64,000 bases of DNA from Loktanella sp. SALINAS62 (lineage in GTDB: Bacteria; Pseudomonadota; Alphaproteobacteria; Rhodobacterales; Rhodobacteraceae): NCBI RefSeq assembly GCF_018263905.1, contig NZ_JAAFZU010000027.1, positions 104,289 through 168,288 on the forward strand, in the 5' to 3' direction. A program made the position numbers and the translations under genes. Shown here in pieces: positions 10,999-58,344 of this stretch (positions are counted from its first letter, which is position 1; each line of letters starts with the position of its first letter). Under the pieces are notes generated by a model that was not told the origin of the DNA, searched no databases, and saw only the letters and a program-made list of their open reading frames with translations.

Positions 10999-11044
10999 TA
11001 AGCGTGGTCACCACCCGACAGACTCCCCATAATTGTCGTCATAA

Positions 11045-11056: not shown

Positions 11057-11071
11057 AAACAGAGGTACAGC

Positions 11072-36051: not shown

Positions 36052-36998
36052 GCAGGCACCGCCACAGGTGTCAGCAGGGGGTTGCCTTGAAAATGGGCGG
36101 CAAGGTTGTCGACGACCAGCTGCGCCATGGCGTCCCGCGTTTCCACCGTGCCGCTCGCGTGGTGCGGATATAGCGTCACGTTCGGCAAGGCGGTCAGCCG
36201 GGGATCGGGCTGCGGTTCGTTTTGATAGACATCCAGCCCGGCACTCCCCAAGGCACCGGTCGTCAGGGCGTCGATCAGGGCGGGTTCATCCACGACGGAC
36301 CCCCTTGCGACATTGATCAACGTGCCTGTCGGACCAAGCGCGCCCAGCATGGCCGCATCGACCATGCCGTCCGTTTCTTCGCCGCCGGGGACGATCACCA
36401 CAAGGATATCCGCCCAGTCCGCCAGCGCCATAGGATCGGCGAAATACTGATGCGGGACGTCCTTTTGGCTACGCGCGGTATACCCGATCTCTAGCTTCAG
36501 CGGGGCAAAACGCGCGGCGATGGCCTTGCCGATCGTCCCGAACCCAAGAATACCGGCGCGCTTGCCGGTCAGCGTGGACAGTAGCGGCCAGGGTCCCTTT
36601 TCACCCCATTCCCCGGTCTGGACATATCCATGCGCCTGCACCAGTTCGCGCCGGGCGGCCAGCGTCAACATCAGCGCGGCGTCCGCGACGTCATCATAAA
36701 GCGCGGCAGAGGTGTTGGTAAAAGCAATCCCATGATCCGCCAATGCCTCTACGTCGATGGACTCGAACCCGGCGGACGAACAGGCGACGATCCGGCAGTT
36801 CGGCAGATGCTGCAGCATCGCGTGGGTTAGTGTCGCATGGCCATTGATGACAACGCCGGAACATTTGGGCCCGTGCTGCGCCAAAAACGCGGGCTTGTCC
36901 GCCGCCTCGTCATAGCGGTGAAGCGTATATGCTTGTTCCAGCTGCGCCATCGCATGGGGCCGCGCGGGATACATCACAAGGATATCGGGCTTTGTCAT
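36048..36998 (-). CDS. D-2-hydroxyacid dehydrogenase (hydroxypyruvate/glyoxylate reductase type)
   Basis: This is a 316-aa D-isomer-specific 2-hydroxyacid dehydrogenase. The NAD(P) motif is GILGFGTIGKAIA, and the catalytic Arg, Glu and His are in NVARGSVVDE, YQNEPQPD and PHHASGT. It resembles plant HPR2 and bacterial GhrB-like enzymes that reduce hydroxypyruvate or glyoxylate. It overlaps the ABC ATPase gene by 4 bp and the DUF475 gene by 4 bp, so it is made along with an oligopeptide-type importer. The substrate is not settled. Confidence 0.87.
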   Translation of the reverse strand: MTKPDILVMYPARPHAMAQLEQAYTLHRYDEAADKPAFLAQHGPKCSGVVINGHATLTHAMLQHLPNCRIVACSSAGFESIDVEALADHGIAFTNTSAALYDDVADAALMLTLAARRELVQAHGYVQTGEWGEKGPWPLLSTLTGKRAGILGFGTIGKAIAARFAPLKLEIGYTARSQKDVPHQYFADPMALADWADILVVIVPGGEETDGMVDAAMLGALGPTGTLINVARGSVVDEPALIDALTTGALGSAGLDVYQNEPQPDPRLTALPNVTLYPHHASGTVETRDAMAQLVVDNLAAHFQGNPLLTPVAVPA

Positions 36999-38614
36999 GC
37001 GGTTACCTCCTGTCGGGCAGCGCGGCGCTCGGCCTGCACTTTTGGATCGGGATGCAGGCTAGAAGCCAGCAGATTGCGAGTATATTCTTCGTGGGGCGCA
37101 TCGAAAATCTGACGCACAGGACCCTGTTCGACGATCCGACCGTCCTTCATCACGATGACGCGGTGCGCGAAATCCCGCACCAGCGGCAGATCATGCGCGA
37201 TAAACAGATAGCTAAGGCCAAGATCGTTCTGGATTTCCTCCAACAGGGCGATCACCTGCGCCTGAATGGAAACATCAAGCGCCGAGACGGCTTCGTCACA
37301 GACAAGGATTTTCGGTTCCAGCGCAAGCGCGCGGGCGATGGCGATCCGCTGGCGCTGTCCGCCAGAGAACTGGTGCGGGTGACGATGGATGTGATCGGCT
37401 TCCAGCCCGACGCGTTCCAGCAGTTCCCTGATCCGGGCCGGGCGTTTGTCCTTTGCCAGAATGTCAGGGTGAATCGCGAAAGCTTCGCCAATGATCTGGC
37501 CGACGGTCATGCGCGGGTTCAGCGATTGCGTAGGATCCTGAAACACCATTTGGATATCACGGCGCATCCGGTACAAATCGCGGTCGCCCATCGTCACTAG
37601 ATCGCGGCCGTCATACAGCGCCTCGCCCGTCGTTGGTTCGATCAGGCGCAGCAGACATTTCGCCAGCGTCGATTTACCAGACCCGGATTCGCCGACGATG
37701 GCGACGGTTTCACCCGCAAACAGCTCAAAGCTGGCCTGATCCAGCGCCGCGAAGCCGCCGAAGTCCTTGCCAAAGTTACGAACCTCCAGCAGCGGTTTGG
37801 TCGCGGTCAATGGCGTCGCCATCTCTCCGGTTCCCGGAACGGCGCCGATCAGTTTTTGCGTATAGGGGTGCGTGGGATTGTGATAGACCTGTTCCGCGTC
37901 GCCGGTTTCCACGATACGGCCGCCGTTCATGACGACGACACGGTCAGCGATCTCTGCGACGACACCCAGATCGTGGGTGATCAGCAAAAGGCCCATCCCG
38001 GTTTCCGCCTGCAGTTCCTCCAGCAGTGCAAGAATCTGCGCCTGCACGGTCACGTCCAGCGCGGTTGTCGGTTCATCTGCAATCAGGATATCCGGCTTCA
38101 TCGCAAGCGCCATCGCGATCATCAGACGCTGCCGCTGCCCGCCCGAAAACTGGTGCGGGTAAGCGTCGATCTTGTCGTCGGCTTCCGGGATACCGACGCG
38201 GTTCATCAATTCCAGCGTCCGCGCACGCGCCTGCGCTTTGGCAGTCCCGTGGGCGGTCATGATCTCCGCGATTTGCGCCCCTACGGTATAAACCGGGTTA
38301 AGGTGGCTGAGTGGGTCCTGAAAGATCATCGCGATCCGCTTGCCGTTCAAACGGCGCCGTTCCTCGTTCGAGGCGCGCAAAAGGTCACGGCCCTCGAACA
38401 GGATTTCCCCCGACACGATCCGGCCCGGAGGGCAGTCGATCAGGTTCATGATGGCCGAAGCCGATACGGATTTGCCGGAACCGGATTCCCCCAGAATGGC
38501 AAGACATTCGCCCCGATCCAGATGCCAGCTGACATCGCGGACCGCATGGACCGGACCGCGCACCGTATCAAAGTCAACAGACAGGTTGCGGACTTCCAGC
38601 AGGTGATCAGTCAT
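36995..38614 (-). CDS. Dipeptide/oligopeptide-type ABC transporter ATPase (fused DppD-DppF type)
   Basis: The product is 539 aa with two complete ABC domains. Domain one has [27 protein letters not shown] and [13 protein letters not shown]; domain two has [27 protein letters not shown] and [13 protein letters not shown] (Pro to Ala in the Walker B region). Each is followed by the oligopeptide-ABC tail with [10 protein letters not shown] or a similar block. It energises the two permeases encoded before it, with an 8-bp overlap to the second. Confidence 0.92.
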
Positions 38615-39548
38615 TTTTTGCCTTCTCCTTGTTCACTTCCAGCCGCCAGCGCTGCGATGGGTCCAGCGCGGTGCGCATCCAGCCTGACAGCAGGTTCAGC
38701 GACAGGGTCGTCAGAATGATCGCAAGTCCCGGCCAGAACGACAGCCACCACGCGCTCGTCAAGTAGGGACGGCCCTGGCTGACCATCAGGCCCCACGTGA
38801 TCTCTGGCGGTTGGATGCCAATGCCAAGGAATGACAGCGACGATTCAGCGAGCATCACAAAAGCAAAATCCAGCGTTGCGATCGTGATCAGCGTCGGCGC
38901 CACGACAGGCAGGATATGGCGCGCCACGATGCGCTTCGTCGAGGCGCCCATCACCTGTGCGGCCTGCACAAACATCCGCTCGCGCACTTCCAGCACCTCG
39001 GCCCGGCTGGTGCGCAGGTAGATGGGGATACGGGTGATCGCCAGTACGATGACCAGGTTCCCGACCGACGGTTCCAGCACATAAAGCACGATGACCGCCA
39101 ATAGCAGCGACGGGAACGACATGATGACGTCGGCCAGCCGCATGATGACCTGACTGGCGGTCTTTGTCGTATAGCCCGCAATCAGTCCAAGCCCCGTGCC
39201 GATCAGCAGCGAACAGGCCACCGCCCCGGCAGCGACTGCCATGGTGTTCTGCGACGCGACAATAATCCGTGCCAGCAAGGGCCGGCCCAGCTGATCGCCA
39301 CCCAAAATGAACAGCCAGCCGCGTGACAAGTCGAAAGGTGGCGCGTTGCGACCGCGCAGGTTCTGCCGGGTGGCGACATCCTCGAACAGCATTGGGCCAA
39401 AGATTGCGCAGAAGATCACAACCAGCAGGATGCAGGCGGCGGCAAAGGCGAACTTGTCGCGCCACAGCATGCCCAAGGTCGTCCGCCACGCGGGCGGAGG
39501 TTTGTAGATTGGGTTGGCCGTGGTGATGGCAGAGTCTATCTGGGACAT
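38607..39548 (-). CDS. Dipeptide-type ABC transporter permease (DppC family)
   Basis: This is a 313-aa membrane protein with an N-terminal cytoplasmic segment, a first span, a periplasmic loop (RNAPPFDLSRGWLFILGGDQLGRPL), then five spans. The EAA loop EVLEVRERMFVQAAQVMGAS contacts the ATPase. The gene is 1 bp after its DppB-type partner. Layout and length are normal. Confidence 0.92.
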   Translation of the reverse strand: MSQIDSAITTANPIYKPPPAWRTTLGMLWRDKFAFAAACILLVVIFCAIFGPMLFEDVATRQNLRGRNAPPFDLSRGWLFILGGDQLGRPLLARIIVASQNTMAVAAGAVACSLLIGTGLGLIAGYTTKTASQVIMRLADVIMSFPSLLLAVIVLYVLEPSVGNLVIVLAITRIPIYLRTSRAEVLEVRERMFVQAAQVMGASTKRIVARHILPVVAPTLITIATLDFAFVMLAESSLSFLGIGIQPPEITWGLMVSQGRPYLTSAWWLSFWPGLAIILTTLSLNLLSGWMRTALDPSQRWRLEVNKEKAKND

Positions 39549-39549
39549 G

Positions 39550-40464
39550 TCAATACCGGATTCTGGGATCGAGCACCGCGTAGAGGATGTCGATGATAAG
39601 GTTCATCACGAAGATGGCGATGGCGGTCACAAAGATCGCGGCCAGCACCACGGTAAAGTCGCGTTGCAGGATGGAATCGATCATCAGCTTACCGACACCG
39701 GGAAAACCGAATATCGTCTCGACGACCACGGCACCGTTCAGCAGGGCTGCGGCCTGATCGCCGATCACGGTGATGACCGGCAGCAGTGCATTGCGCAACG
39801 CGTGGACGAAGATGACAGACTTGTTTTTGACCCCCTTGGCGCGGGCGGTCTTGACGTAGGCGGCCCCCAGCGTGGTGATCATCGACGACCGCACGACCTG
39901 CAGGATCAGGCCAAAGGGCCGGATGAACAGCACCCCAACTGGCAATATCCAGTGCCAGACCGTGCCGGTCCCGCTGGTAGGGATGAAGGCCACGTTGAGC
40001 GAAATGGTCACGATCGCAACGATAGCGATCCAAAAATCCGGGGCGGATGCGCCTATCAGACTGAAGAACGTCGCGATCCGGTCGAACAGACCACCAACAT
40101 GAAATGCGGCAAGCGACCCGATTACGATGGCGGCGACCGTCACCAGAGTCATGGTGATTGCGGCCAGTTGCAGCGTCCAGACGAAGGCCCGCAGCACGAC
40201 ATCCAATGCGGGTTCCGACCGGCGGATACTGTCGCCGAAATCCAGCACGGCCAAGTCTGCCATGTAGCGTCCGAACTGCACCAGCAGTGGATCGTTCAAA
40301 CCGTTGATCTCGCGAAAATTCTCGCGCGCTTCCAAAGAAGCGTCCAGCGGCAGGTAAAGCGATGTCGGATCGCCGGTCAGCCGCGACAGGAAAAAGACAA
40401 GGATGATGAGGCCCAACAGCGAAATCAGGCTCGCAAGGGCACGTTTGCCAAGGAAGGCGCGCAT
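39550..40464 (-). CDS. Dipeptide-type ABC transporter permease (DppB family)
   Basis: The product is 304 aa with six spans. It has the DppB N-terminus (RALASLISLLGLIILVFFL), a long periplasmic loop with GDPTSLYLP, and the EAA loop YVKTARAKGVKNKSVIFVHALRN-type region in which Gly and Ala positions are kept. It pairs with the DppC-type protein to form the channel. A hairpin lies between it and the binding-protein gene. Confidence 0.92.
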   Translation of the reverse strand: MRAFLGKRALASLISLLGLIILVFFLSRLTGDPTSLYLPLDASLEARENFREINGLNDPLLVQFGRYMADLAVLDFGDSIRRSEPALDVVLRAFVWTLQLAAITMTLVTVAAIVIGSLAAFHVGGLFDRIATFFSLIGASAPDFWIAIVAIVTISLNVAFIPTSGTGTVWHWILPVGVLFIRPFGLILQVVRSSMITTLGAAYVKTARAKGVKNKSVIFVHALRNALLPVITVIGDQAAALLNGAVVVETIFGFPGVGKLMIDSILQRDFTVVLAAIFVTAIAIFVMNLIIDILYAVLDPRIRY

Positions 40465-40521: not shown

Positions 40522-42030
40522 TCACTCCGCGAACTTGATCTGCGACAGTTGCAGTTCAGAGTTCGTCTTGATCGACGGTGCAAAGTCCAGACGTTCGTTC
40601 ACGCGGGTAAAGCCGACCATATGGAACAGAAGCACGTCGGCCACGATCTCTTCGTGAATGTAGGCAAAGGCATCGCTCCACAGCTGCTCACGCTCGTCGT
40701 CGGTCGCGGCAGTCGCATCGGCGATCATCTGGTCCAGCTTCGGGTCGGTCACGCCGGACTGCAGACCGTCCGAGGCGTATTTGAAGAACATCGAGAACAC
40801 CGGGTCGCCACTTGCATTGTCGTGCATGGCCTGAACCATCATCGGGCCGCGATCTTCGGCAAATGGCTTGGAATACAGACCTTCCCACTCGGCCACTTCG
40901 TACATCTCGAGGTTCACGTTCAGGCCAACGTCCTGCAGCATCTGCGTGACGGCTTCCATCGTCTCCAGCACGTTGCCAAAGTTGTTCAGTCGACCGACCA
41001 GCGTGATCTCTGCTTCGGTATCGACACCATCGGCAGCGGCCTCTTCGAGAAGCTGACGTGCCATGTCGGGATCGTAGCTGTAGGGTTCGAGTTCGGCGTT
41101 GTAGCCGATGGTCGACGGCGGCGTCATGCCGGTGGCCAGCAGCGTGCCGTCGGCAAGAATCGTGCCAACGAAAGCTTCACGGTCAATGGCGTGGTTCATC
41201 GCCTTGCGCACGCGCACGTCGTCAAGCGGCGCGGTGCCGTTGTCGATACGCAGATATACGGTTTCCGAGTTCGGATATGAAAAATCCATGTCTTCCGAAA
41301 CGGCATCCTGCAACGCGATGGATGGCGCGATATCGGCCTCGCCCGTTTCAACCATGGCGGCACGAACGGCGCTGTCGGACCGGAACACATATGTCGCGCT
41401 CGTCACCGCAGGCGTTTCGCCCCAGTAACCGTCGTAGGCCGACAGGGTAATGTTCTGGCCGACGTTGTATTCGTCGAATGTATAGGGGCCGGTGCCGATG
41501 GGCGTGTCAAGGAAAGCATCCATCGTAGTTTCCGATGGCACCACGGTCACGGTGGACATCAGCAGCGGCAGGATGGGCTGCGCCGGGTCTGTGGTGATAT
41601 CAATGGTGGTTGCATCCACAACTTCGGTCGTCAGTTCCATGCCGCCAAAGAATTTCGCACCGATCTCGCAGACGATGGCGTCGGTTTTGATACGTGCGAT
41701 GGAATGGGCCACATCTTCGGCATCGAAGGTCGATCCGTCATGGAATGTGACGCCTTCGCGCAGGGTAAAGCGCCAGGTACCGTCGCCCCTGTCTTCCCAT
41801 GCGGTTGCCAGACGCGGCTGGATGCCTGTGCCCGGCACCAGTTCGGTCACCGTCTCCGACACGTTCTGCTGCAGGACGCGGCCGATGTTCGACCTCGATG
41901 TCATGCAGGGGTCCACAAGGTCGAGTTCTTCGGCAAGCACGACCGTGACGTTGCTGTCCTGCGCAAACGCCGCCGTGGCGCAGGTCGAGGCAAGCAAGGC
42001 CGCCGCAAGAGTAGTGAATTTATGTGTCAT
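40522..42030 (-). CDS. Dipeptide/oligopeptide-type ABC transporter substrate-binding protein
   Basis: This is a 502-aa SBP_bac_5 family protein with a signal peptide (MTHKFTTLAAALLAST, cleavage after AFA). It has the family block WEDRGDGTWRFTLREGVTFHDG near residues 80-100. The ATG at 42030 follows GGGAGG; upstream in-frame codons lack a ribosome site. It is first in the operon and divergent from a LysR gene. Members bind peptides, but also glycosides, opines and nickel; the D-2-hydroxyacid dehydrogenase in the operon leaves room for a non-peptide ligand. Confidence 0.9.
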   Translation of the reverse strand: MTHKFTTLAAALLASTCATAAFAQDSNVTVVLAEELDLVDPCMTSRSNIGRVLQQNVSETVTELVPGTGIQPRLATAWEDRGDGTWRFTLREGVTFHDGSTFDAEDVAHSIARIKTDAIVCEIGAKFFGGMELTTEVVDATTIDITTDPAQPILPLLMSTVTVVPSETTMDAFLDTPIGTGPYTFDEYNVGQNITLSAYDGYWGETPAVTSATYVFRSDSAVRAAMVETGEADIAPSIALQDAVSEDMDFSYPNSETVYLRIDNGTAPLDDVRVRKAMNHAIDREAFVGTILADGTLLATGMTPPSTIGYNAELEPYSYDPDMARQLLEEAAADGVDTEAEITLVGRLNNFGNVLETMEAVTQMLQDVGLNVNLEMYEVAEWEGLYSKPFAEDRGPMMVQAMHDNASGDPVFSMFFKYASDGLQSGVTDPKLDQMIADATAATDDEREQLWSDAFAYIHEEIVADVLLFHMVGFTRVNERLDFAPSIKTNSELQLSQIKFAE

Positions 42031-42175
42031 CTGATCCTCCCTGATCGATGGTGATTGACGCGACACTAGATCCTCCAAAGTCGCGTATCCGCAAAGCCGT
42101 CGCGTTGAACGAACCCCACTTGGATGCCAGTCTGCCGAAACACGCGGCAGAACAAAATTTCAAAGTTGAATTGAT

Positions 42176-42196
42176 TTGATACCCAAAATGTATCAA
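42176..42196. promoter_or_regulatory. Predicted LysR operator before the dipeptide-ABC operon
   Basis: TTGATAC (42176-42182) and GTATCAA (42190-42196) are a perfect inverted repeat with a 7-bp centre (ATAC-N7-GTAT), a classic LysR T-N11-A site. It lies 9 bp before the LysR ATG and about 145 bp before the ABC binding-protein gene. Confidence 0.65.
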
Positions 42197-42205
42197 TAGG
42201 TGATT

Positions 42206-43105
42206 ATGTCTAGTTTCGACTTTAATCATCTGCGTTGTTTCGTAGCCGTCGCCGAAGAGCTGAATTTTCGCCGCGCGGCTGACCGACTGAATATGACGCA
42301 GCCCCCCCTGACCCGGCAGATCCAGCTTCTGGAACAGCGCACGGGGCTGAAGCTGCTGGACCGCAACACGCGGCAGGTCCGGCTGACCCCAGCAGGAGCA
42401 GATTTTCTGAACAGCGCCACGGATATTTTGGAACGCGCTGAACGGGCCGTCCTGTCTGCGCGACAGGCAGAGCGTGGCGAAACCGGTGCCGTCGTGCTGG
42501 GTTTCGTGCCGTCCGCCGCAATCACCTTTGTGCCGCACATCGTCGCCGCCGTGGCCCGTGACCGCCCCGGCGCGTCGTTCCGTCCGACCGAAATGATGAG
42601 CTATGAGATCATCGAAGGCCTGCGGTCCGGTCGACTGGATTTCGGCCTGACGCGCAGCGAATCCCCCGCGCCCGAGATTGAAAGCGTCCGTGTGGTCAGC
42701 GAGCCTTTCTTGCTGGCGGCCCCTTCTGACCATCCGCTTGCGCGTAAGACGCCTGTGCGTATCGCCGATTTGAATGGCGTCGACTTTCTCGGCTATTCCG
42801 ACGAACGCGGTGGGTTCCTGCGCAACGTGCAGTCGGCTGTGTTTGCTGCGATGGATGTTCGCCCCAACATCCGGCACGAAGTCAGTCAGACCCAGACGAT
42901 CATCGGGCTTGTGGCGCAGCGGCTTGGCGTCGCCTTGGTGCCGGCATCGGCCAGCGGGATGCACCTGCCCGGTGTTGTCTTTTGCGAAACGGATCTGCCG
43001 GACCGGTTCCGGTCGACCCTTTATCTGGCCAGCGTGCCGCGTCGTCATACGGCACTGCACAGCGCCGTACGCGACACGGTCATTCGCACGATGGCCGCAC
43101 TTTAG
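42206..43105 (+). CDS. LysR-family transcriptional regulator
   Basis: This 299-aa regulator has the LysR helix-turn-helix (LNFRRAADRLNMTQPPLTRQ) and a substrate domain of the usual length. I chose the ATG at 42206 (MSSFDFNHLRCF); a GTG at 42200 is in frame but gives no better ribosome spacing. It is divergent from the dipeptide-ABC operon and has a perfect inverted repeat at its promoter. It overlaps the end of the EamA gene by 4 bp (convergent). Confidence 0.88.
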   Translation: MSSFDFNHLRCFVAVAEELNFRRAADRLNMTQPPLTRQIQLLEQRTGLKLLDRNTRQVRLTPAGADFLNSATDILERAERAVLSARQAERGETGAVVLGFVPSAAITFVPHIVAAVARDRPGASFRPTEMMSYEIIEGLRSGRLDFGLTRSESPAPEIESVRVVSEPFLLAAPSDHPLARKTPVRIADLNGVDFLGYSDERGGFLRNVQSAVFAAMDVRPNIRHEVSQTQTIIGLVAQRLGVALVPASASGMHLPGVVFCETDLPDRFRSTLYLASVPRRHTALHSAVRDTVIRTMAAL

Positions 43106-43992
43106 GGTACCGGCCTGATTGTTCCACGCGCCGAACGTGCCATCAGCAAGGTCGCCACGAAAATCAGCACGGCCCCAATCCACGTCGCCATCGTCGCCAT
43201 CTGCCCGAACACCAGCCACCCGGCCAATGCCACGGCGGGCAAACGCAGAAAATCGATCGGCGTCAAAAGCGAAGCATCCGCCAGCGAGAACGCCCGCGTC
43301 ACCAACCCCATGTTCAGCGCCCCCATGATCCCCTGCGCGACCAATAGGCCCCAGACCCACGCCGGCGGCGACGACCAGAAAAACAGCGCCGGAATCGCGG
43401 CTAGCGGCACGGTCGCGATCAGGTTCCACGCGACCAGCGTTTCGGTCCGGTCGCTGGCGGTCATCGGCTTCAGCACCAGTTGGATCACTGCCGTTAGAAG
43501 CGCGCCGCCCAGCGCAAAGGCCAGCCCAGCCGACACGCCCCCCTGCCCCGGTCGCAATACGACCAAAACCCCAATGAAGCCTATGGCGACCGCGACGATC
43601 CGAAGGCGTTGCGGCAACTCTGACAGAAAAATCCACGCCCCCAACGTCACGAACAAGGGTGTCGTGAAAGCGATGGCCGTCACATCTGCCAGCGGAGCAA
43701 CGGCGAAGGCTGCGAAGAAGGCGATCAGTGACGCCAGCTTCAATCCCGCCCGAAGCACGTGGCGATAGGTGTAGTTCGACTTCAGGATGCCGGGCCGCGA
43801 CAGGATCCAGGGCAACACCACCAGCAGACCGAACAGCGACCGTGTGAACCCGATGAACACCGGATGAACATGGGGCGCCACGGCCCGCGCAATCATCGCA
43901 TCCAGCGCACCCAGACAGGCGACGATGACCATCAGCATCACGCCGATCATCTGGCGACGATCCTGTCGATCGCCTGCATTCGGGGACTTCAT
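43102..43992 (-). CDS. EamA/RhaT-family (DMT) membrane transporter
   Basis: This 296-aa protein has ten hydrophobic spans in two EamA repeats. The first repeat begins after a polar N-terminus (MKSPNAGDRQDRRQM); FAAFAVAPLADVTAIAFTTPLFV is the typical conserved end of repeat one. Members export metabolites or amino acids, but the substrate cannot be told. It ends 4 bp inside the LysR gene, and its 5-prime side faces the sialidase-like operon. Confidence 0.87.
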   Translation of the reverse strand: MKSPNAGDRQDRRQMIGVMLMVIVACLGALDAMIARAVAPHVHPVFIGFTRSLFGLLVVLPWILSRPGILKSNYTYRHVLRAGLKLASLIAFFAAFAVAPLADVTAIAFTTPLFVTLGAWIFLSELPQRLRIVAVAIGFIGVLVVLRPGQGGVSAGLAFALGGALLTAVIQLVLKPMTASDRTETLVAWNLIATVPLAAIPALFFWSSPPAWVWGLLVAQGIMGALNMGLVTRAFSLADASLLTPIDFLRLPAVALAGWLVFGQMATMATWIGAVLIFVATLLMARSARGTIRPVP

Positions 43993-44049
43993 GGAACATT
44001 CCGCTCTCGCTTGTGGGCTTGCATCCCAAGTCGTGCGCCCGGATCACTT

Positions 44050-44060
44050 ATTTGTCAAAT
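44050..44060. promoter_or_regulatory. Predicted GntR operator, upstream half of a pair
   Basis: ATTTGTCAAAT is a perfect inverted repeat round one central base (TTG-N-CAA core). A second repeat with the same core is 54 bp downstream. Both lie between the EamA gene and the sialidase-like operon. Confidence 0.4.
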
Positions 44061-44103: not shown

Positions 44104-44116
44104 AAGTTGACAACTT
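44104..44116. promoter_or_regulatory. Predicted GntR operator before the sialidase-like operon
   Basis: AAGTTGACAACTT is a perfect inverted repeat round one base. TTGACA inside it could also be a promoter -35 box. It lies 51 bp before the operon at 44167; the GntR regulator encoded at 48242 is the likely binder. Confidence 0.5.
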
Positions 44117-44166: not shown

Positions 44167-45309
44167 ATGCAGATGACGCCGGACCAAATTGAAGCCGGGA
44201 TGGATGGTCGCCTGCGGCCAGTGTCGGACGGCAGGTCAGAGGCACTGCTGCCTGCCGTTACGATCCAGAACCATGCGGCCTTTCTGGCACGGGGCAAAGA
44301 CGGATTGGCGTGTCTTTGGTTCGGTGGCTCGCTGGAAGGTAAGTCCGACATCTGCGTCTGGCGCAGCCTTCTGACAGAAGGCCAATGGTCCGAGCCTGAG
44401 CAAATCAGCGACGACCCGGACAGGTCCGAACAGAACCCGATCCAGTTTGACGCACCCGATGGACGGCGGCTGTTCCTGCACACCGCGCAAGTGGGTGGCG
44501 ATCAGGACGCCTGTCGCGTGCGTCTGCGACAGGCAGGCGGCGCGCCTGTGGATCTGCCGCTCGCGCCCGGCACATTCATTCGCGCGGCCCCGCTGGTGCG
44601 CGACGACGGCGCGTGGTTGTTGCCGCTGTTCCGTTGTGTGCCACGCCCCGGCGAACGCTGGACCGGCGCACACGATACCGCTGCTGTCGCAATCAGTGCG
44701 GACGCGGGCAGAACATGGCGTACGGTCGAGGTGCCGGATTCCATCGGCTGCGTACACATGACCCCCGTCGACCGGGGCGACGGCCATCTGGTCGCTTTCT
44801 TCCGCCGCAGACAGGCGGACATGGTTTATCGTACAACCAGCGCCGATGGCGGCGAAAGCTGGACGCCACCTGCCCCGACCGACGTGCCGAACAACAATTC
44901 ATCAATCGCGGTGATCCGCTTGGCCGACGGACGCATCGCCATGGCCTGCAACCCCACCAACGCGGCAGAGCATCCAACCGCCCGCCGCGCGTCGCTATAT
45001 GACGAACTGGGCGAAAGCGACGACCGCCCCAATGCGTCCGGCGGCTGCACGCCGATCTGGGGGGTGCCGCGCGCGCCGATGACCCTGTGTCTGTCAGACG
45101 ACGACGGCCAGACGTTCGCGCGCCGCATCGTGGTCGAAAAGGGCGCTGGCGATTGCCTCAAGAACGACTCCGTTTCCGGCGAGAACCGCGAAATGTCCTA
45201 TCCCGCATTGTCGCAGGCCTCGGACGGGTCGCTTGACCTTGCCTATACCTACCACCGCCGCGCGATCAAACACGTGCGGCTATCCCTGAACTGGTTGGAA
45301 TCCCAATGA
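44167..45309 (+). CDS. Sialidase-like (BNR-repeat) six-bladed propeller protein, cytoplasmic
   Basis: This 380-aa protein has three Asp-box motifs, SADAGRTW (177-184), SADGGESW (225-232) and SDDDGQTF (310-317), the mark of the sialidase/BNR propeller. Arg and acidic residues that could form an active site are present (Glu at REMSYPALS, Arg in [12 protein letters not shown]). No signal peptide is visible, so it acts inside the cell. Known bacterial sialidase-fold enzymes release or rearrange sialic acids and related sugar acids. It overlaps pdxA2 by 4 bp. A hydrolase or isomerase of an imported acidic saccharide is a reasonable guess; the reaction is unknown. Confidence 0.75.
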
Positions 45310-46247
45310 TCGGCATCACCATGGGCGACCCCGCTGGCGTCGGCCCCGAAATCATCCTGAAAGCCTTGGCGGAAATGGGCGACGATGCCCGCGCGCAGGT
45401 TCGCGTCTTCGGCTGTCGCACCACGCTGGACGCGACAGAGGCGGTCGTGAGGACAGGTCTAGATCTGGACACACTGTCGATCGAGGACGTGCCCGTTGAA
45501 GGCGCACCCTTGCCGTGGGGAAAAGAGGACCCGCGCGCCGGGGATGCCGCCTATCGCTGTATCGCCGCTGCCGTGACAGCCGCGCAGGATGGGCGCATCG
45601 CCTGCATCGTGACCGCACCGCTGAACAAGGCGACGCTGAATGCGGCAGGACATCACTATGACGGACATACAGGCTTGCTGGCGCATCTGACGGGGCACAA
45701 GCGGGCCTTTATGTTGCTGGCCTCCGAACGGCTGAACGTCATCCACGTTTCGACCCATGTGGCACTGGCCGACGCGATCACACGCGCGACGCCGGACCAG
45801 GTGCTTGCCACGATACGTCAGGGCCACGCGCATCTGAAACGCCTTGGCATCGCGGCCCCCCGCATCGCTGTCGCGGGCATCAACCCGCACTGTGGCGAAG
45901 GCGGTCTGTTCGGCACAGAGGACGACGACCAGCTTGCGCCTGCTGTCGTTGCGGCACAGGCCGAGGGTATCGACGCCCAAGGCCCCATCGCAGCGGATAC
46001 AGTGTTTCACCGCGCTTTCAACGGCAGCTTCGATCTGGTGATCGCGCAGTATCACGATCAGGGCCATATCCCGATCAAGCTGGTGGCTTTCGACACGGCG
46101 GTAAATGTCACGCTTGGCCTGCCGATCGACAGGGTGTCGGTGGATCACGGCACCGCCTTTGACGTCGCCGGAACCGGACGCGCGAACCACACAAATATGA
46201 ACGCGGCGCTGGCCTATGCCCGTCGCCTGACCGGAGACAGCGCATGA
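45306..46247 (+). CDS. PdxA2-type 4-phospho-acid-sugar dehydrogenase (4-hydroxythreonine-4-phosphate dehydrogenase family)
   Basis: This 313-aa PdxA-family enzyme has [14 protein letters not shown] at its start and metal-binding His residues in [19 protein letters not shown] and [10 protein letters not shown]. Housekeeping PdxA makes vitamin B6; PdxA2 forms act on D-threonate or D-erythronate 4-phosphate, giving DHAP and CO2, and pair with DUF1537 kinases. A short DUF1537 gene lies in the convergent operon (48922), which favours the PdxA2 role. It overlaps the genes on both sides by 4 bp. Without a comparison to the genome's other PdxA, the B6 role cannot be excluded. Confidence 0.82.
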
Positions 46248-47149
46248 CCCATGCAATTCAAGGCGTCCATTGCGCCGCAGCCACCCCCGTCACCGCCGAT
46301 GGTCGTCCCGATCTGGCCCTGTTCACCGCCCATTGCCGTGCGCTGCTGGACGAAGGCTGCCACGGCATCGCGCTCCTTGGCACGACCGGAGAGGCGAACA
46401 GCCTGGCCCACGCTGACCGCATGGCGCTGCTAGACGTAGCCATCGACGGTGGCATCGACGCAGGCGTGATGCTGCCCGGCACCTCTGCCCCTGCAATCCG
46501 GGACACGATACAACTGACCCGGCATGCGGTCGCGGCGAATGCCAAGGGCGTCGTGTTGCTGCCACCCTACTATTACAAGGGTGTCAGCGACGAAGGGCTC
46601 TTCCGCTTCTACGCCCGCGTAATTGAAGGAGTCGCGGACGACCGCCTGCGCGTGGTGCTGTATCACATCCCCCAAGTGACGCAGGTGCCGATCACGCATG
46701 ATCTGATCGATCGGCTGATGCGTGAATTTCCCGGTATCGTCGTGGGGATCAAGGACAGCGCAGGCGATATCGACCACATGGTCAGGCTTGTGCGCGACTT
46801 CCCCGATCTGGCCGTTCTGGCAGGCGCTGACCCGCTGATGCTGCCGCTGCTCCGCGCTGGCGGCGCTGGCTGCATCACCGCCACGTCAAACCTGCGCGCC
46901 GACGCGTTGCGGGATATTTGGGACAACTGGCAGGACGACAGCGCCGCCGATATCGTGCGCGCAGCACAGGACCGGATCGACGACTGGCGCGCCCTGACCA
47001 ACGCCTATGTACAACTGCCGACCGTCAAGGCGATGCTGGCCCGGTCGCGCGGCGACGACGGCTGGCTGAATGTGCTGCCGCCGCTCGTGCCCGTCACCGA
47101 CGAGGCCCGCGCCGACATCCACGCCCGCATGGCCGAACTGGAGCACTGA
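46244..47149 (+). CDS. DapA-family lyase/aldolase
   Basis: This is a 301-aa TIM-barrel of the dihydrodipicolinate synthase/N-acetylneuraminate lyase family. It has GTTGE (46-50), the Tyr of VVLYHIP (140) and the Schiff-base Lys of VGIKDSAGD (170). Such enzymes split or join 2-keto acids through the Lys. With a sialidase-like protein upstream and an alcohol dehydrogenase downstream, a 2-keto-3-deoxy acid aldolase that yields pyruvate and an aldehyde fits well. It is one of three DapA-family genes in this part of the window. Confidence 0.85.
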
Positions 47150-47150
47150 C

Positions 47151-48248
47151 ATGGACCTTGCTCGCCCCATCACCCTGCACTTGCCCAAAAGGGTCGAAGT
47201 CGGCCAAGGCACCGCCGCGCAGCTTGGACTTTGGGCCAAAGGCTTTGACCGCGTGCTGGTCCTGTGTTCCCGCTCGACGCAGGCAATGATCGACCAATTG
47301 GGCCTTTCCACGCCGCCTGCGTCGCATGTGGTTCCGCCCGAACCAAAGGACAAAGACCTTGCAGCCGCCATCGACACCGCGCGAAAGGTACGACCCGACC
47401 TGATCGTCGGCCTTGGCGGCGGATCGGTCATGGACATAGCAAAGCTGGTCGCGGTCCTGTGGGGCAGCGATCATGCGCTGTCGAACATCGGCGGTGCGGA
47501 CAAGGTCACCGCCCGCTACTCTGCCATTGCCCAAGTTCCCACGACTGCTGGCACCGGGTCCGAAGGCGGCATTCGCGCGCTCTTCACCTCGACCGACACC
47601 GGTATGAAAGTGGCCGTCGAAAGCGCGCTGATGCTGGCCGATTTGGCAATCCTAGACCCCGACCTGACGATGGGCATGCCGCCCGCGATCACCGCTGCTA
47701 CGGGCGTGGACGCGCTGGCGCATTGCGTCGAAGGATTTACCTCCAAGCGGTCGCACCCGCTGATCGACGGTTATGCGCGCCAGGGGATTGCGCTGACCGG
47801 GCGCTATCTGGCGCGCGCCGTGCAGGACGGATCGGACCCCGAGGCACGGTCGGCCATGCTACTGGCGTCCTTTTATGGCGGACTGTGCCTTGGCCCCGTG
47901 AACACGACCGCCGGGCACGCCGTGGCTTATCCTTTGGGGACTCACGCCGGCCTGCCGCACGGGCTGGCCAACGCATTGGTGTTCCCGCACGTGCTGGCCT
48001 TCAACGCGCCCGCCGCGCCGGAAAAGACCGCCGAGATTGTCACGAGTCTTGGCGCGCGCAGTGCCGAGGCAACCGTTGACTGGTGCCGCTCTCTTGGCAT
48101 CGACATGTCGCTGAAAAGCCATGGGATATCAGATTCGCAACTGTCCGCTTTTGCCAAAGAGGCGCACGGCATCCGCCGTCTGATGGACTGGAACCCGCGC
48201 GAAGCGAGTGTCGCTGACATCGAAGCAATCTATCGCGCGGCTTATTGA
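47151..48248 (+). CDS. Iron-containing alcohol dehydrogenase
   Basis: This 365-aa group III alcohol dehydrogenase has GLGGGSVMDIAKLVA for NAD, PTTAGTGSEGG, and metal ligands in TGVDALAHCVEGF, NTTAGHAVAYPLG and LPHGLANAL. It starts one base after the lyase stop and ends convergent with the GntR gene (7-bp overlap). It may reduce the aldehyde released by the lyase or oxidise an alcohol sugar; maleylacetate reductase is a related activity. It is distinct from the member at 20544. Confidence 0.87.
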   Translation: MDLARPITLHLPKRVEVGQGTAAQLGLWAKGFDRVLVLCSRSTQAMIDQLGLSTPPASHVVPPEPKDKDLAAAIDTARKVRPDLIVGLGGGSVMDIAKLVAVLWGSDHALSNIGGADKVTARYSAIAQVPTTAGTGSEGGIRALFTSTDTGMKVAVESALMLADLAILDPDLTMGMPPAITAATGVDALAHCVEGFTSKRSHPLIDGYARQGIALTGRYLARAVQDGSDPEARSAMLLASFYGGLCLGPVNTTAGHAVAYPLGTHAGLPHGLANALVFPHVLAFNAPAAPEKTAEIVTSLGARSAEATVDWCRSLGIDMSLKSHGISDSQLSAFAKEAHGIRRLMDWNPREASVADIEAIYRAAY

Positions 48249-48925
48249 TCCAGCGCCCGCGCGCGCGACCCTTCCAGATGCAGCCGCATTTCTGTCCGGG
48301 CGGTGTCTCCGTCTCCGTCACGAATTGCGGCGAAGATCCGGCCGTGTTCGTCAAAGACGTGCTCCAACCCCGCCGGGACGATCTTAAGTGACGCGCCGTG
48401 CCGGCGCATGCCGACGGCGATGTGATCCTTCAACTCCTCCATCGACATGGCAAAATAGCGGTTACCGCTCGCCCGCGCGATAGCCAGATGGAATGCGAAA
48501 TCAGCGTCTTCTCGGTGATGCGCGGCGCGGGTCGCCTGCCCGAGAAGGTCAAGGGCGGCCACGATTTCTGTCAGTGCCGCGGGTGTCTTCTCGCGGGCTG
48601 CAGCTGCCGCCGCTTCGGGTTCGATGGCCAGCCTGAACGCATAGCAAGCCGCCAGATCGCGGGTGCCCTCGGGCCGTCCAAAGCCCAGCGGCGCGCGCAA
48701 GCCGGACTGCCGCACAAATGTGCCGGACCCTTGCCGGGCCTGCACTAACCCCTGTTCGGCCAGCCGCCGCAAAGCTTCTCGCAAAACGGGGCGAGAGATG
48801 TCGAGCTCTGCCGCCAGCGCATGTTCGGTCGGCAGCCTTTCCCCGTCGGCATAGGCCCCCGATCGGATCGCGCGGAACAAGCGGTCATAGGCCGCATCGG
48901 CAAGTGAGGGGCGCCGCGCCTTCAT
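48242..48925 (-). CDS. GntR/FCD-family transcriptional regulator
   Basis: This is a 227-aa regulator with a winged helix (ERLPTEHALAAELDISRPVLREALRRL region) and an FCD domain (FHLAIARASGN). The start at 48925 overlaps the stop of the DUF1537 kinase gene (ATGA). It is the last gene of the long minus-strand operon and lies end to end with the plus-strand sialidase-like operon. The paired TTG-N-CAA repeats before that operon are likely targets. Confidence 0.87.
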   Translation of the reverse strand: MKARRPSLADAAYDRLFRAIRSGAYADGERLPTEHALAAELDISRPVLREALRRLAEQGLVQARQGSGTFVRQSGLRAPLGFGRPEGTRDLAACYAFRLAIEPEAAAAAAREKTPAALTEIVAALDLLGQATRAAHHREDADFAFHLAIARASGNRYFAMSMEELKDHIAVGMRRHGASLKIVPAGLEHVFDEHGRIFAAIRDGDGDTARTEMRLHLEGSRARALDQ

Positions 48926-49884
48926 GCGACAAGCCTGCACAGCGCGTCGGGCGCGCCAAAGCCACCGGATTTCGTGACGATCAACCGCCCCGCCGCGTCG
49001 CGCGACACTGGCAGACCTGGTAACGCTTCTCCGGTCACGTGCAACAGGTGCACACCCAGCGCGTCCAAGACCGCCTCTGCCGTGGCACCGCCAGACACGA
49101 CGAGCGCGTCTATCGCAGCAGCGCGAGAAGCGATCCCGTCGGCGAAACGGCGCGTTACCGCGCCCAGCGGCAGGCCGGCGATGTCGGTCGCATGGACCAG
49201 TCCGCCACCGCCCGGTGGCACCTGTCCACCGGGTGCTGTTTCGCAATCCAGTCCCGACGCCTGCAGCGCCGCAATCTGTGCCAACGTGATCGGGTCCTGC
49301 GACCCGATGGCGAACAGCATGAGCCCTGGCAACGGCAAGTCGATGACGGTTGGAGCTGCGCCCATGCGCTGCGCCAAGACCTGCGCCAGCCCGCGCGCAC
49401 CGACCGGCAAGGCACCCGGGTCGGCATCCAGCGCCGCCGCGATGTCTGTTTTGGTTGCGGCATCCGGCGCAATGGCCTGTGGGCCTAGAACATCCGCAAT
49501 CATGATCGGCCGGTCCACGCCGAACCCCTGCACCGCGCCGTCGCGCACGATCCGCCCCATGTCGGGCAAGGCAGGCAGCAAAAGGGGTCGGCCGGGCATC
49601 GCACGCAGCTCTGCCCTGATGTTACCTTTTAAGCGCGAGTCGACTTTCTTCATCAGCGCGGCCCCGTCAGGCACCATCGCCATGATCTTTGCCACGGTCC
49701 GCGCAGCCGTGTCGGCGTCACACTCGCGGCTACGGGTCGAGACCGCGACGATCCGTTTCCCGTAGTCCAACGCCGCTTGAAACGCATCTGGACCAGTCGC
49801 CACGACAGCCCCCAACGCGGCAAACGGGGCGGCTGCATCCAGCGCCCCGGTCAGATCGTCCGCCACAATTATCAAGTCCGGCAC
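48922..49884 (-). CDS. Short DUF1537 (four-carbon acid sugar kinase) family protein
   Basis: The product is 320 aa against about 410-470 for most of the family, OtnK in this window being 411. It keeps the N-terminal VADDLTGALDAAAPF, KKVDSRLKGNIRAEL, the C-terminal VVSGGATAEAVLDALG and the final VTKSGGFGAPD. The shortage falls in the middle, between substrate and nucleotide domains. DUF1537 kinases phosphorylate D-threonate, D-erythronate or oxotetronates at O-4. The start is GTG after GGAGG. Together with the PdxA2 gene in the convergent operon it could convert a tetronate to DHAP. Whether the short form is active is open. Confidence 0.78.
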   Translation of the reverse strand: MPDLIIVADDLTGALDAAAPFAALGAVVATGPDAFQAALDYGKRIVAVSTRSRECDADTAARTVAKIMAMVPDGAALMKKVDSRLKGNIRAELRAMPGRPLLLPALPDMGRIVRDGAVQGFGVDRPIMIADVLGPQAIAPDAATKTDIAAALDADPGALPVGARGLAQVLAQRMGAAPTVIDLPLPGLMLFAIGSQDPITLAQIAALQASGLDCETAPGGQVPPGGGGLVHATDIAGLPLGAVTRRFADGIASRAAAIDALVVSGGATAEAVLDALGVHLLHVTGEALPGLPVSRDAAGRLIVTKSGGFGAPDALCRLVA

Positions 49885-49937: not shown

Positions 49938-50693
49938 TTAGCCCATCAATGTGCCACCATTTGCGTTCAATGTGGCCCCCGTGATGAACCCCGACGCAGG
50001 CGACGCAAGGAACAGCACCGTGTCCGCGATCTCTGTGTCCGAACCCAGCCGACCCATCGGCACCTTGGCCAACACCTGCGCGCGGTAGGCAATGTCCCAC
50101 TGGTCGGTCATGTCGGTCTGGATCGGACCAGGGCAGACCGCGTTCACGCGGATACCGTGCAGCGCAAATTCGCGCGCAAAGTGCATGACAAGGTAATTCA
50201 CAGCGGCCTTGGACGCGCCATAGGCGGGCGACGCATTGGGATGAGGCGCCTTCGACGCAGAGGAACTGACGCTGACGATTCGCCCGGTCCTTGCAGCCAT
50301 CATGTGAGGCAGGACGGCCCGGCACAGATGCAACGTGCCGTTCAGGTTCACGTCCAACATCCGCTGCCAGTCGTCCAGTGCCAAGTCCAAGGTGCTGATG
50401 CGCTGGTTCATACCCGCGTTGCAGACCGCAATGTCGATCCGTCCGAACCGATCCATCGCCGCCGTCGCCATCCGGGCCGACACGTCGGGGTCCGAGATAT
50501 CGCCAAAGATGGCCACGGCATCGCGACCCGTCGCTTGAACCGCAGCAAGCGTGTCATCCAGCGCCCCGTCCCGCGACGCCCCAAGCACGAGGTCCGCACC
50601 CGCCTGTGCCAGCCGCACCGCGACCGCGCGACCGATGCCACGGCTTGCCCCACTGATGATCGCGACCTGCCCGGTCAGATCACTGCCGCTCAC
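49938..50693 (-). CDS. SDR-family NAD(P)-dependent oxidoreductase
   Basis: This 251-aa classical SDR has GASRGIGRA, CNAGMN, the catalytic SVSSSASKAPH Ser and YGASKAA (YxxxK), and the C-terminal NANGGTLMG. The start is GTG at 50693 with GAGGA in front, 10 bp after the stop of the dehydratase gene. It resembles 3-oxoacyl reductase and sugar dehydrogenase-type SDRs; in this operon oxidation of a sugar or a sugar acid is likely. Confidence 0.84.
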   Translation of the reverse strand: MSGSDLTGQVAIISGASRGIGRAVAVRLAQAGADLVLGASRDGALDDTLAAVQATGRDAVAIFGDISDPDVSARMATAAMDRFGRIDIAVCNAGMNQRISTLDLALDDWQRMLDVNLNGTLHLCRAVLPHMMAARTGRIVSVSSSASKAPHPNASPAYGASKAAVNYLVMHFAREFALHGIRVNAVCPGPIQTDMTDQWDIAYRAQVLAKVPMGRLGSDTEIADTVLFLASPASGFITGATLNANGGTLMG

Positions 50694-50703: not shown

Positions 50704-51609
50704 TCAGCTACGGCCTTCGATCAAGGCGGCCATCATCTGGCTTTCCTCCTCGGTCAGATCGGTCAGCGGCGACCGCACGGAACCCGTGTCAAACCCGCGC
50801 AGCCGCACACCGGCCTTCACGGCGGATACGGCATAGCCTGACTTGCGGTCGCGGATCGCGGCGAAAGGATAATAAAATTCCTGCAGCATCTTGTGACAGG
50901 TCGCATCATCGCCCGATGTAAAGGCGGCGTGGAACGCCAGCGCCGTTTCAGGCACAAAGTTGAAAACGGCGGACGAATAAGTGTCCACCCCCGCCCCGCG
51001 ATAGGCCTGCGCAAACAGCTCGTGCGTGGGCATACCGCCGATATAGGCCAACCGGTCGCCCAGACCGACCGTAATGCGCTTGACCGTATCGATGTCGCCG
51101 GTTCCGTCCTTGAACCCGATCAGGTTGGGGCAGTTGTCGGCTAGCCGGGCCAGTGTTTCCGCCTTCACGACCGACTGGCCCCGGTTGTAGACGATGACGC
51201 CCATGTCAGTGGACCGGCAGACCGCACGGATATGGGCCTCAATCCCATCCTGGGGCGCGCCGATCAGGTAATGCGGCAATAGCAGGATACCGTCGCCGCC
51301 CGCCGCCTCGATCCCCTGTGCAAGGTCACAGGCCATACGCGTACCATAGCCGCATCCGGCGATAACCGGGGCGTCGGGCTGGGCTTCGCGGGCGGTTTTG
51401 ACCACGGCGATCACCTCATCCGGGGTCAGGGAAAACATCTCTCCGGTGCCGCCCGCGACAATCAAGCCCGCAACGGGATGGGCGGACAGCCAGTCAAGAT
51501 GCGCGCGGAACGGACCGGGCGCAAAGCGATCTTCTGCGTCGAAGGGTGTAACCGGGAACGACAGCAGGCCGGACCGAATTACGTCGCGCAGCTCAGTAGG
51601 GGACATCAT
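50704..51609 (-). CDS. kdgD: 5-dehydro-4-deoxyglucarate dehydratase (KdgD-like, DapA family)
   Basis: This is a 301-aa DapA-family protein. It has GLLSFPVTPFD at the N-terminus, AGGTGEMFSLT, Tyr141 (VIVYNRG), Lys167 (IGFKDGTGD), and GVDTYSSAVFNFVPETAL and the stretch YAVSAVKAGVRLRG that resemble KdgD. KdgD converts 5-dehydro-4-deoxyglucarate to 2-oxoglutarate semialdehyde and CO2; the enzyme for the next step is encoded at 53336 in the same operon. The ATG at 51609 has GGAG with an 8-nt spacer. The symbol rests on remembered family patterns, not on a database match. Confidence 0.75.
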   Translation of the reverse strand: MMSPTELRDVIRSGLLSFPVTPFDAEDRFAPGPFRAHLDWLSAHPVAGLIVAGGTGEMFSLTPDEVIAVVKTAREAQPDAPVIAGCGYGTRMACDLAQGIEAAGGDGILLLPHYLIGAPQDGIEAHIRAVCRSTDMGVIVYNRGQSVVKAETLARLADNCPNLIGFKDGTGDIDTVKRITVGLGDRLAYIGGMPTHELFAQAYRGAGVDTYSSAVFNFVPETALAFHAAFTSGDDATCHKMLQEFYYPFAAIRDRKSGYAVSAVKAGVRLRGFDTGSVRSPLTDLTEEESQMMAALIEGRS

Positions 51610-51621
51610 TGGATTGGCTCC

Positions 51622-53321: not shown

Positions 53322-53335
53322 GGGTGTTCTCGCTT

Positions 53336-54853: not shown

Positions 54854-54872
54854 GTCGTCTCCTTTAGTATGC

Positions 54873-55607: not shown

Positions 55608-55608
55608 G

Positions 55609-58247: not shown

Positions 58248-58280
58248 GACTGGTCCTTTTGCGGGTAACACTTCTGACAA

Positions 58281-58294
58281 TGTATGCGCATACA
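58281..58294. promoter_or_regulatory. Predicted LacI-family operator, dehydratase side
   Basis: TGTATGCGCATACA is a perfect 14-bp palindrome with a central CG, as usual for LacI-type repressors. It lies between a minus-strand -35-like TTGACG (58316-58311) and a -10-like TACATT (58292-58287), so a bound repressor would block the dehydratase operon promoter. Confidence 0.7.
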
Positions 58295-58344
58295 AAAATG
58301 ATCGTCAACCGGATTGCAGGCTCATTTATGTTAAATTTCGCAGG

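Follow-up and report, generated by a model that had tools for sequence, protein, structure and literature searches.

Here we describe a gene cassette in a 64,000-nucleotide stretch of the genome of Loktanella sp. SALINAS62 (termed the window; its coordinates are positions in that stretch). The cassette encodes a sialidase-fold protein of the BNR family (hereafter BNR), a PdxA2-type dehydrogenase, a DapA-type lyase, an iron-containing alcohol dehydrogenase (FeADH) and a compact DUF1537 kinase. It is a real gene set that travels together. We consider the chances about even that it degrades a 3-deoxy-heptulosaric acid via pyruvate and D-threonate to dihydroxyacetone phosphate (DHAP), both the substrate and every reaction being predicted. 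The substrate is probably the acid of this kind called DHA, which is found in the pectin component rhamnogalacturonan II (RG-II) and in prasinophyte scales. More tentatively, the cassette would constitute a bacterial DHA pathway and a source of D-threonate in nature, involving a Tyr-His sialidase-fold enzyme and a compact kinase, and would provide a function for an Escherichia coli operon.

The gene for BNR (44167..45309, plus strand) overlaps that of the dehydrogenase (45306..46247, plus strand) by 4 bases, as does the latter the gene for the lyase (46244..47149, plus strand). FeADH (47151..48248, plus strand) begins with an ATG at 47151, one base past the stop codon of the lyase; the start of the listed open reading frame (ORF) at 47070 is too early. 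On the convergent strand the gene for a FadR/GntR regulator with an FCD domain match (48242..48925, minus strand) overlaps the kinase gene (48922..49884, minus strand) by 4 bases, and the two adjoin each other in relatives also. Coordinates and domain matches therefore bear out the initial annotation of this DNA, which had described four overlapping or abutting plus-strand genes and a convergent DUF1537 kinase. Profile matches above the cut-off were obtained for PF13088 (BNR), PF04166 (PdxA2), PF00701 (lyase), PF00465/PF25137 (FeADH) and PF07005 plus PF17042 (kinase).

The gene content near BNR was tabulated for 35 fetched loci, which were picked from match lists rather than at random and some of which are kin to one another. 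Not included in the table are the window itself, L067, L087 (which is of one species with L075) and the distant BNR homologues. DapA-type and FeADH genes are each found in 34 of the 35 loci, PdxA in 30 (in one of them as remains only) and DUF1537 in 26. The sole locus lacking DapA, L034, is an 8.8-kb contig. In L035-L037 the kinase sits just outside the fetched stretch, and in L003 and L007 a short kinase is encoded elsewhere in the same genome. L038 is a decayed cluster with broken BNR, FeADH, importer and regulator genes. Moreover, a search of 295 genomes of the family recovered BNR matches in 17 (the genome of the window counted), 12 of which are orthologues with at least 50% identity, one of them broken. 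The short kinase has a near-full-length match in 14 of these genomes, in one case split across two contigs, and PdxA2 is detected at E < 1e-100 in 10. BNR orthologue and short kinase are found together in 11 (Fisher p = 1.4e-16, a value that is only indicative since the genomes are related). The association of the two is not due to chance.

In a class-wide sample BNR matches amounted to 12/385, with two orthologues besides that of the window. Among plasmid records, 310 of 72,556 have a BNR match, chiefly from Rhizobium (128), Sinorhizobium (78), Pantoea (27) and Agrobacterium (17). Before this plasmid-record search broadened the range, the named relatives had been marine. The cassette is present in Alpha-, Beta- and Gammaproteobacteria, and most named carriers are plant-associated or marine, E. 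coli and Klebsiella being exceptions. In Sinorhizobium meliloti 1021 the cluster is located at 157196-164870 of pSymB (NC_003078.1). In the E. coli locus read, the operon occupies the glnS/nagE interval, and a match covering at least 80% of it is present in 1043 of the 5426 complete genomes of this species. Relatives of the E. coli BNR also occur in four phage records, two of which are Halovirus HCTV-5 entries annotated as sialidase.

The link to D-threonate is provided by the kinase and PdxA2. A D-threonate pathway consisting of DtnK and PdxA2 is reportedly described in studies of DUF1537 proteins; the names used here are those of NCBIfam. The cassette pair of Klebsiella pneumoniae passes the respective NCBIfam equivalogs (D-threonate kinase, 507.8 vs 450; D-threonate 4-phosphate dehydrogenase, 667.3 vs 583), and the E. 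coli pair has the same two names in RefSeq. The window PdxA2 matches solved PdxA2 structures (2hi1, 273.6 bits; 6e85, 267.1 bits) better than a biosynthetic enzyme (1yxo, 172.9 bits), and its top structure match, 4jqp (275.5), carries just the general PdxA name. The reverse pattern is seen for a second PdxA copy in the same genome (biosynthetic 6xmy, 247.5, and 1r8k, 233.9, vs 6e85, 207.0). Thus, the PdxA of the window is not the sole, biosynthetic copy, a possibility that the initial annotation had raised against its own proposal: one of the two copies is PdxA2-like and the other biosynthetic-like. By analogy, the window PdxA2 is predicted to be a D-threonate 4-phosphate dehydrogenase.

Both domains of the kinase score above their cut-offs (SBD_N, 62.4 vs 25 bits; NBD_C, 57.7 vs 28.3 bits), and the protein has the motifs ADDLTGA, DSRLKG, GSxDP, GGATAEA and KSGGFG. 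Its model (pLDDT 93.0) has the fold of the solved DUF1537 protein 5dmh (Z 32.7, root-mean-square deviation (rmsd) 2.8, 314 residues aligned). It is not a full-length DUF1537 protein of about 420 amino acids: it comprises 320, with SBD_N matched over 1-124 of 230 and NBD_C over 96-168 of 168. This short form is common to all 12 aligned sequences, the window included. In Caballeronia (L083, 8127-10433) kinase (10-403) and PdxA2 (433-754) are fused into one protein of 768 amino acids. In L008 and L029 both genes are missing from the stretch.

The lyase, which scores 150.5 bits against PF00701, belongs with the class I DapA/NAL enzymes: the Schiff-base lysine K170 and Y140 are found in 33/33 rows of an alignment of the window sequence with those from 32 of 40 loci that passed a length and score filter. 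It is not a NanA by equivalog scores (87.8 vs 281 and 74.9 vs 382). R249 of DapA was dropped as a specificity marker, because the KdgD of the window has it too. In FeADH, which matches PF00465, the residues D187, H191, H256 and H270 are at least 93% conserved among 39 rows; they correspond to the metal ligands of this enzyme family. Its scores against the nearest families, ErcA (a regulatory protein), 4-hydroxybutyrate dehydrogenase and sulfoacetaldehyde reductase, remain far below the respective cut-offs. As judged by alignment, the catalytic residues of lyase and FeADH are intact.

From these assignments we infer the reactions of the pathway, their order, the substrate and the binding of the regulator. 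An importer would take up the substrate, which BNR would free or ring-open at the anomeric carbon. The DapA-type lyase would then cut the C3-C4 bond via a lysine Schiff base, yielding pyruvate and D-threuronate (2,3-dihydroxy-4-oxobutanoate), and FeADH would reduce the aldehyde to D-threonate. Phosphorylation by the DUF1537 kinase would give D-threonate 4-phosphate, and its oxidation by PdxA2, followed by decarboxylation, DHAP and CO2. If the lyase is to give pyruvate and an aldehyde that can be reduced to D-threonate, its substrate must be a 3-deoxy-hept-2-ulosarate with D-threo configuration at C5/C6. Aldol cleavage of D-lyxo DHA and subsequent reduction do give D-threonate, according to a stereochemistry derived by hand. 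The initial annotation had envisaged that an imported acidic saccharide or nonulosonic-like acid is broken down to pyruvate, an aldehyde and a tetronate that ends as DHAP. Conversion of an imported ulosonic-type acid to pyruvate and a tetronate, and on to DHAP, is the likeliest reading also here, but the aldehyde and the tetronate would be successive forms of one C4 product. The substrate would therefore be a seven-carbon 2-keto-3-deoxy diacid and not a nonulosonic acid.

Excerpts of three papers describe where such an acid occurs. RG-II contains DHA, which is released by GH143 enzymes (PMC6811678); in plants, DHA, which is called a relative of sialic acid and is not commercially available as a standard, is reported from RG-II only (PMC12168206); and the scales of prasinophytes as well as the theca of Tetraselmis contain it (PMC10762512). 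A Streptomyces relative (37% identity) is encoded together with DapA and an Opp-type importer, next to genes for an apiosidase-like protein and for GH28 proteins, neighbours that are as expected for RG-II or pectin use. On the more tentative reading given above, E. coli could feed on DHA that other gut bacteria release from dietary pectin.

The transporter differs between versions of the cassette, and the imported compound may or may not be a saccharide as had been envisaged. In the window an Opp-type ATP-binding cassette (ABC) importer is encoded on the minus strand upstream of BNR. It consists of an ATPase of 539 amino acids with two fused ATPase halves (36995..38614), of which a homologue is found beside BNR in those Rhodobacteraceae-type loci that have the importer, two permeases (38607..39548 and 39550..40464), and an Opp/Dpp-type solute-binding protein (SBP_bac_5; 40522..42030; PF00496, 246.5 bits) that has a signal-peptide-like start and orthologues in relatives. 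The same importer version is found in rhizobia, Agrobacterium and Aminobacter. A sodium:solute symporter (SSS) takes its place in Methylobacterium, Azospirillum, Caballeronia, Roseomonas, Pantoea and Klebsiella, and the E. coli operon has a citrate-type CitMHS/SLC13 permease. For one SSS carrier, no solved sialic acid carrier was among its 14 structure matches. According to an excerpt of PMC2848018, the S. meliloti importers in the category 'other organic acids/alcohols' include SMb20144, a tag that may belong to the cluster.

Finally, two loci (L065 and L066) have the tricarboxylate transporter TctABC. PdxA2, a DapA paralogue, FeADH, the short kinase and FadR are all present in them, and BNR is absent; their genomes gave no BNR match at all in the family-wide search. 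Since lyase, FeADH, kinase and PdxA2 are kept without BNR in the TctABC loci, we regard these four as the core of the cassette, which probably acts on an imported carboxylate, and BNR as part of uptake or substrate preparation. In L009 and L031-L033 the DapA orthologue is swapped for a paralogue of about 30% identity, and a near relative of this paralogue is found in L075-L077 and L085 (Sinorhizobium, Neorhizobium, Agrobacterium and one R. leguminosarum). A lyase is retained in the cassette whichever its lineage. The Pantoea, Klebsiella and E. coli operons also include proteins of the YhcH/NanQ (anomerase) family. YhcH opens cyclic N-acetylneuraminic acid for its aldolase, as reported in an excerpt of PMC8141875, which by analogy suggests that the enterobacterial operons handle a cyclic ulosonic acid that needs to be opened before it reaches the lyase.

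BNR scores 192.5 bits against PF13088 (cut-off 31.4), and its AlphaFold2 model, based on 25 aligned sequences (pLDDT 93.6), is a six-bladed propeller whose closest solved folds are sialidases of glycoside hydrolase family 33 (GH33; 2ber, Z 34.7, 303 residues aligned, rmsd 2.4). The highest 12-residue hydropathy within its first 45 residues is 0.97, compared to 1.72 for the binding protein of the importer, and there is no signal-peptide-like start. A sialidase fold without signal peptide, as initially proposed, is thus supported by both model and hydropathy, but a sialidase activity is not. GH33 enzymes use an arginine triad, a tyrosine nucleophile and a glutamate that activates the tyrosine. 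Tyr345, Arg213 and Arg302, whose roles as nucleophile and two of the arginines are assigned by position, are found in 35/35 BNR rows (window and 34 loci). The position of the FRIP arginine, in a register taken from motif order, reads as His36 and is H in 35/35 rows. His197, which lies opposite the activating glutamate in two pairwise alignments, is conserved in 34/35 rows and replaced by Q in the remaining one. A script found no FRIP motif in the canonical-sialidase loci scanned for residue-level alignment, and the map of the active site is therefore based on the two pairwise alignments, motif order and the fold. BNR appears to keep the sialidase fold and the tyrosine without two of the catalytic residues, and because of the changes at His36 and His197 it is unlikely to be a canonical retaining sialidase. 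It may hydrolyse a DHA conjugate, open a ring, hydrolyse a lactone or catalyse a beta-elimination. Conjugate hydrolysis is our tentative first choice, which falls short of an even chance; its lead over ring opening or lactone hydrolysis, a somewhat more doubtful prediction, is small because BNR also occurs with small-solute carriers.

A TTGWCAA motif is found within 150 bases 5' of the first gene in 25 of the 27 loci tested first (window, ABC types, L034 and L059), compared to 171 of 10,800 random 150-base stretches; these loci are related to one another, so that the counts measure conservation and not independent events. Between 36 and 58.3 kb the window has two sites of this kind, the operator-like palindromes ATTTGTCAAAT (44050..44060) and, about 60 bases 5' of BNR, AAGTTGACAACTT (44104..44116). 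Several relatives also have a second site farther upstream, and in both TctABC loci a site precedes FeADH. FadR probably controls the ABC and TctABC versions via these palindromes, to which it is predicted to bind.

A number of observations weigh against a DHA pathway of this kind. The window pair scores below the D-threonate equivalog cut-offs (kinase, 72.8 vs 450; PdxA2, 302.3 vs 583), so that D-threonate is assigned to them by way of the context they share with the other versions. The kinase is approximately 80-100 residues shorter than solved DUF1537 proteins, and the lyases that were scanned reach no NCBIfam equivalog. In L008, L029, L059 and L089 the stretch contains BNR and DapA but no PdxA or kinase gene, and that of L032 has no PdxA. 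The genomes of L008 and L029 have one PdxA each and no short kinase, and L029, from a 300-contig draft, ends shortly after FeADH at the contig end. An imported oligosaccharide as the target of hydrolysis does not sit well with the presence of BNR alongside monomer-type carriers (SSS, SLC13). Moreover, the SSS-type loci carry an extra short-chain dehydrogenase/reductase (SDR) without known role, a conserved short protein of about 227 amino acids encoded beside or near BNR (L081, 13154-13837; L084, 14052-14768; and others) and, in L029, 8.7 kb from it (7589-8287). At nine other BNR loci, mostly of the SSS/SLC13 types plus L038 and L089, there is no TTGWCAA at the cassette start, which brings the overall count to 25/36 and indicates that the site goes with the ABC-importer versions; L081 and L084 have FadR but no such site.

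The other point concerns the wider BNR family. Its 14 distant homologues have 22-35% identity in the part that matches, and the 10 of them that were fetched (L039-L043 and L060-L064) show no PdxA2, DapA, FeADH or kinase match in the stretch. The expectation that BNR is accompanied by its partners in most genomes consequently holds for the orthologues of the 35-locus survey, but not for the family as a whole, whose distant members have other neighbours. The stretch of the Streptomyces locus contains no FeADH, PdxA or kinase gene. L067, which has a short kinase and a 45% PdxA among other genes, apparently represents a different pathway.

Four other explanations were considered. The same core chemistry could be fed by a BNR that acts as dehydratase or lyase, by Tyr/His-mediated beta-elimination beside a carboxylate, and forms the 2-keto-3-deoxy diacid from another C7 acid, much like GarD in the breakdown of galactarate, in which case the imported compound would not be DHA. 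The Tyr-His-Arg set that appears in place of the canonical sialidase residues and the presence of BNR with monomer carriers would suit such an enzyme. The resulting order of dehydratase, aldolase, reductase and kinase would resemble that of the Gar pathway. In the TctABC loci, however, which lack BNR, no IlvD-type match is found in the stretch, in a test that did not include enolase-type dehydratases. Moreover, we know of neither a sialidase-fold dehydratase nor a common natural C7 aldaric acid, and we regard this explanation as unlikely, though it is the strongest of the four. Still less probable is another ulosonic acid, such as 3-deoxy-D-manno-octulosonic acid (Kdo), 5-O-methyl-Kdo, or a sialic or other nonulosonic acid, with kinase and PdxA2 acting on a side product. 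Such a substrate would agree with the GH33 fold of BNR and with the NanA-related family of the lyase, and, in excerpts of the respective papers, Kdo-type acids accompany DHA both in algal scales (PMC10762512) and in RG-II (PMC12168206). Cleavage of these acids, however, would yield neutral aldoses or amino sugars and no C4 aldehyde-acid. The lyase does not reach the NanA equivalogs, no NanE/NanK-type family was found among ten window proteins scanned, and the core genes also adjoin dicarboxylate-type transporters. Kdo and sialic acids were rejected as the substrate on account of the lyase product and the NanA scores.

It is highly improbable that kinase and PdxA2 serve vitamin B6 or the recycling of an erythronate-type by-product next to an unrelated pathway formed by the remaining genes. 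PdxA2 can reportedly carry out the reaction of PdxA (excerpt of PMC9997740), and the paper on E. coli BEN2908 describes the pair in this way (excerpt of PMC12928451). The genome of the window, however, has a separate biosynthetic PdxA, for which reason B6 biosynthesis was rejected as the role of PdxA2, and lyase and FeADH stay with kinase and PdxA2 across classes and exchanged transporters. We assign just as little probability to a C7 mono-acid, for instance a 3-deoxy-heptulosonate, from which the lyase would release a neutral tetrose for oxidation to the tetronate by FeADH or another enzyme. The lyase route would yield a tetronate here as well, and SSS carriers import neutral or mono-acid sugars. 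Oxidation of an aldose to the acid would nevertheless be unusual for an FeADH, the nearest families of this one by score, distant as they are, are those named above, and the TctABC and CitMHS carriers point to a di- or tricarboxylate. DHA as the substrate remains our preferred reading.

Several neighbouring genes are doubtful members of the cassette or belong elsewhere. Between importer and BNR lie genes for a LysR regulator (42200..43105, plus strand; PF03466/PF00126) and an EamA-type transporter (43102..43992, minus strand; PF00892), the membership of both of which is doubtful; a 675-amino acid ORF (42020-44047, minus strand) that masks these two real genes is spurious. The SDR next to the kinase (49938..50693, minus strand), which adjoins it in L004, L005, L006 and L028 too, is accessory at most. 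The region 50704-58295 (minus strand) encodes a KdgD-type dehydratase (subfamily score 412 bits vs cut-off 278), an aldo-keto reductase, an RraA-like protein, an aldehyde dehydrogenase, an SDR, a DapA-like protein and an IlvD/Edd dehydratase, a sugar-acid route of its own that perhaps leads to 2-oxoglutarate. At 9661-13841 (plus strand) there are genes for a TRAP DctM protein, a 3-hydroxyisobutyrate-dehydrogenase-like protein, a full-length DUF1537 kinase (437 amino acids) and a class II aldolase, which presumably resemble a C4 acid pathway of the LtnD/OtnK/OtnC type. In Maritimibacter (L003, 14304-15341) a PfkB-family kinase gene adjoins FeADH. L007, with its short DUF1537 gene elsewhere in the genome, has an ORF of the same length in the same place; the family was tested in L003 only. 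TerC-family or DUF475 membrane proteins recur by the cassette (L091, 11153-11911; L008, 644-1705; L030, 958-1998), a 2-hydroxyacid dehydrogenase adjoins the importer ATPase in L008 (1705-2673) and L030 (2003-2941), and ketopantoate-reductase-like genes are found in or near the cluster in L005 (7997-8980), L008 (13177-14145) and L084 (24707-25209).

If the proposed pathway is correct, it allows bacteria to degrade a sugar acid that occurs in plant RG-II and in the coverings of scaly green algae, and it accounts for the natural origin of D-threonate, on which the DtnK/PdxA2 pair acts and for which, to our knowledge, no source has been established. It would also provide a function for an operon of rhizobia, marine bacteria and E. 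coli whose genes currently bear the annotations 'exo-alpha-sialidase' and 'pyridoxine biosynthesis'. In any case the cassette flags a sialidase-fold family in which catalytic residues have apparently changed. The gene set as such is already in print: a paper on E. coli BEN2908 names COG4692, DapA, Fe-ADH, OtnK, PdxA, EbgC, CitT and GlpR in what it calls genomic region 6 and points to a similar cluster in S. meliloti 1021, and its excerpted text proposes no substrate or pathway (PMC12928451). None of the titles and abstract beginnings in the literature surveyed, a scope mostly outside subscription papers, describes a DHA catabolic pathway. What would be new, as far as these partial sources go, is the naming of a substrate and not the cluster.

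The predicted substrate DHA is shared with the GH143 DHA-hydrolase, but that enzyme is, in the excerpted text, a five-bladed propeller with a Tyr-Glu pair (PMC6811678). BNR shares its fold with the GH33 sialidases and differs from them in that His36 and His197 appear in place of Arg and Glu and in that it has no signal peptide. Sialic acid catabolism (sialidase, NanT/SiaT, NanM/NanQ, NanA) likewise combines a propeller fold with a lyase of the DapA superfamily, and some cassette loci have an SSS carrier and a NanQ-family protein; the cassette, however, is without a NanA equivalog, and its predicted product leads to D-threonate instead of N-acetylmannosamine. With the D-threonate pathway the cassette has its kinase and dehydrogenase families in common, and those of K. 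pneumoniae pass the equivalogs; in the cassette, however, three further proteins (lyase, aldehyde reductase and sialidase-fold protein) would supply D-threonate, and the kinase of the window is compact. Galactarate and glucarate are degraded by GarD, GarL, GarR and GarK. The predicted steps of the cassette resemble this route in the aldol cleavage of a 2-keto-3-deoxy diacid, the reduction of the semialdehyde and the phosphorylation, whereas its substrate would be one carbon longer, its lyase is DapA-type instead of GarL-type, FeADH would stand in for GarR and DHAP would be formed via PdxA2. By this analogy, the logic of the predicted pathway is that of galactarate breakdown plus one carbon, joined to the D-threonate pathway.

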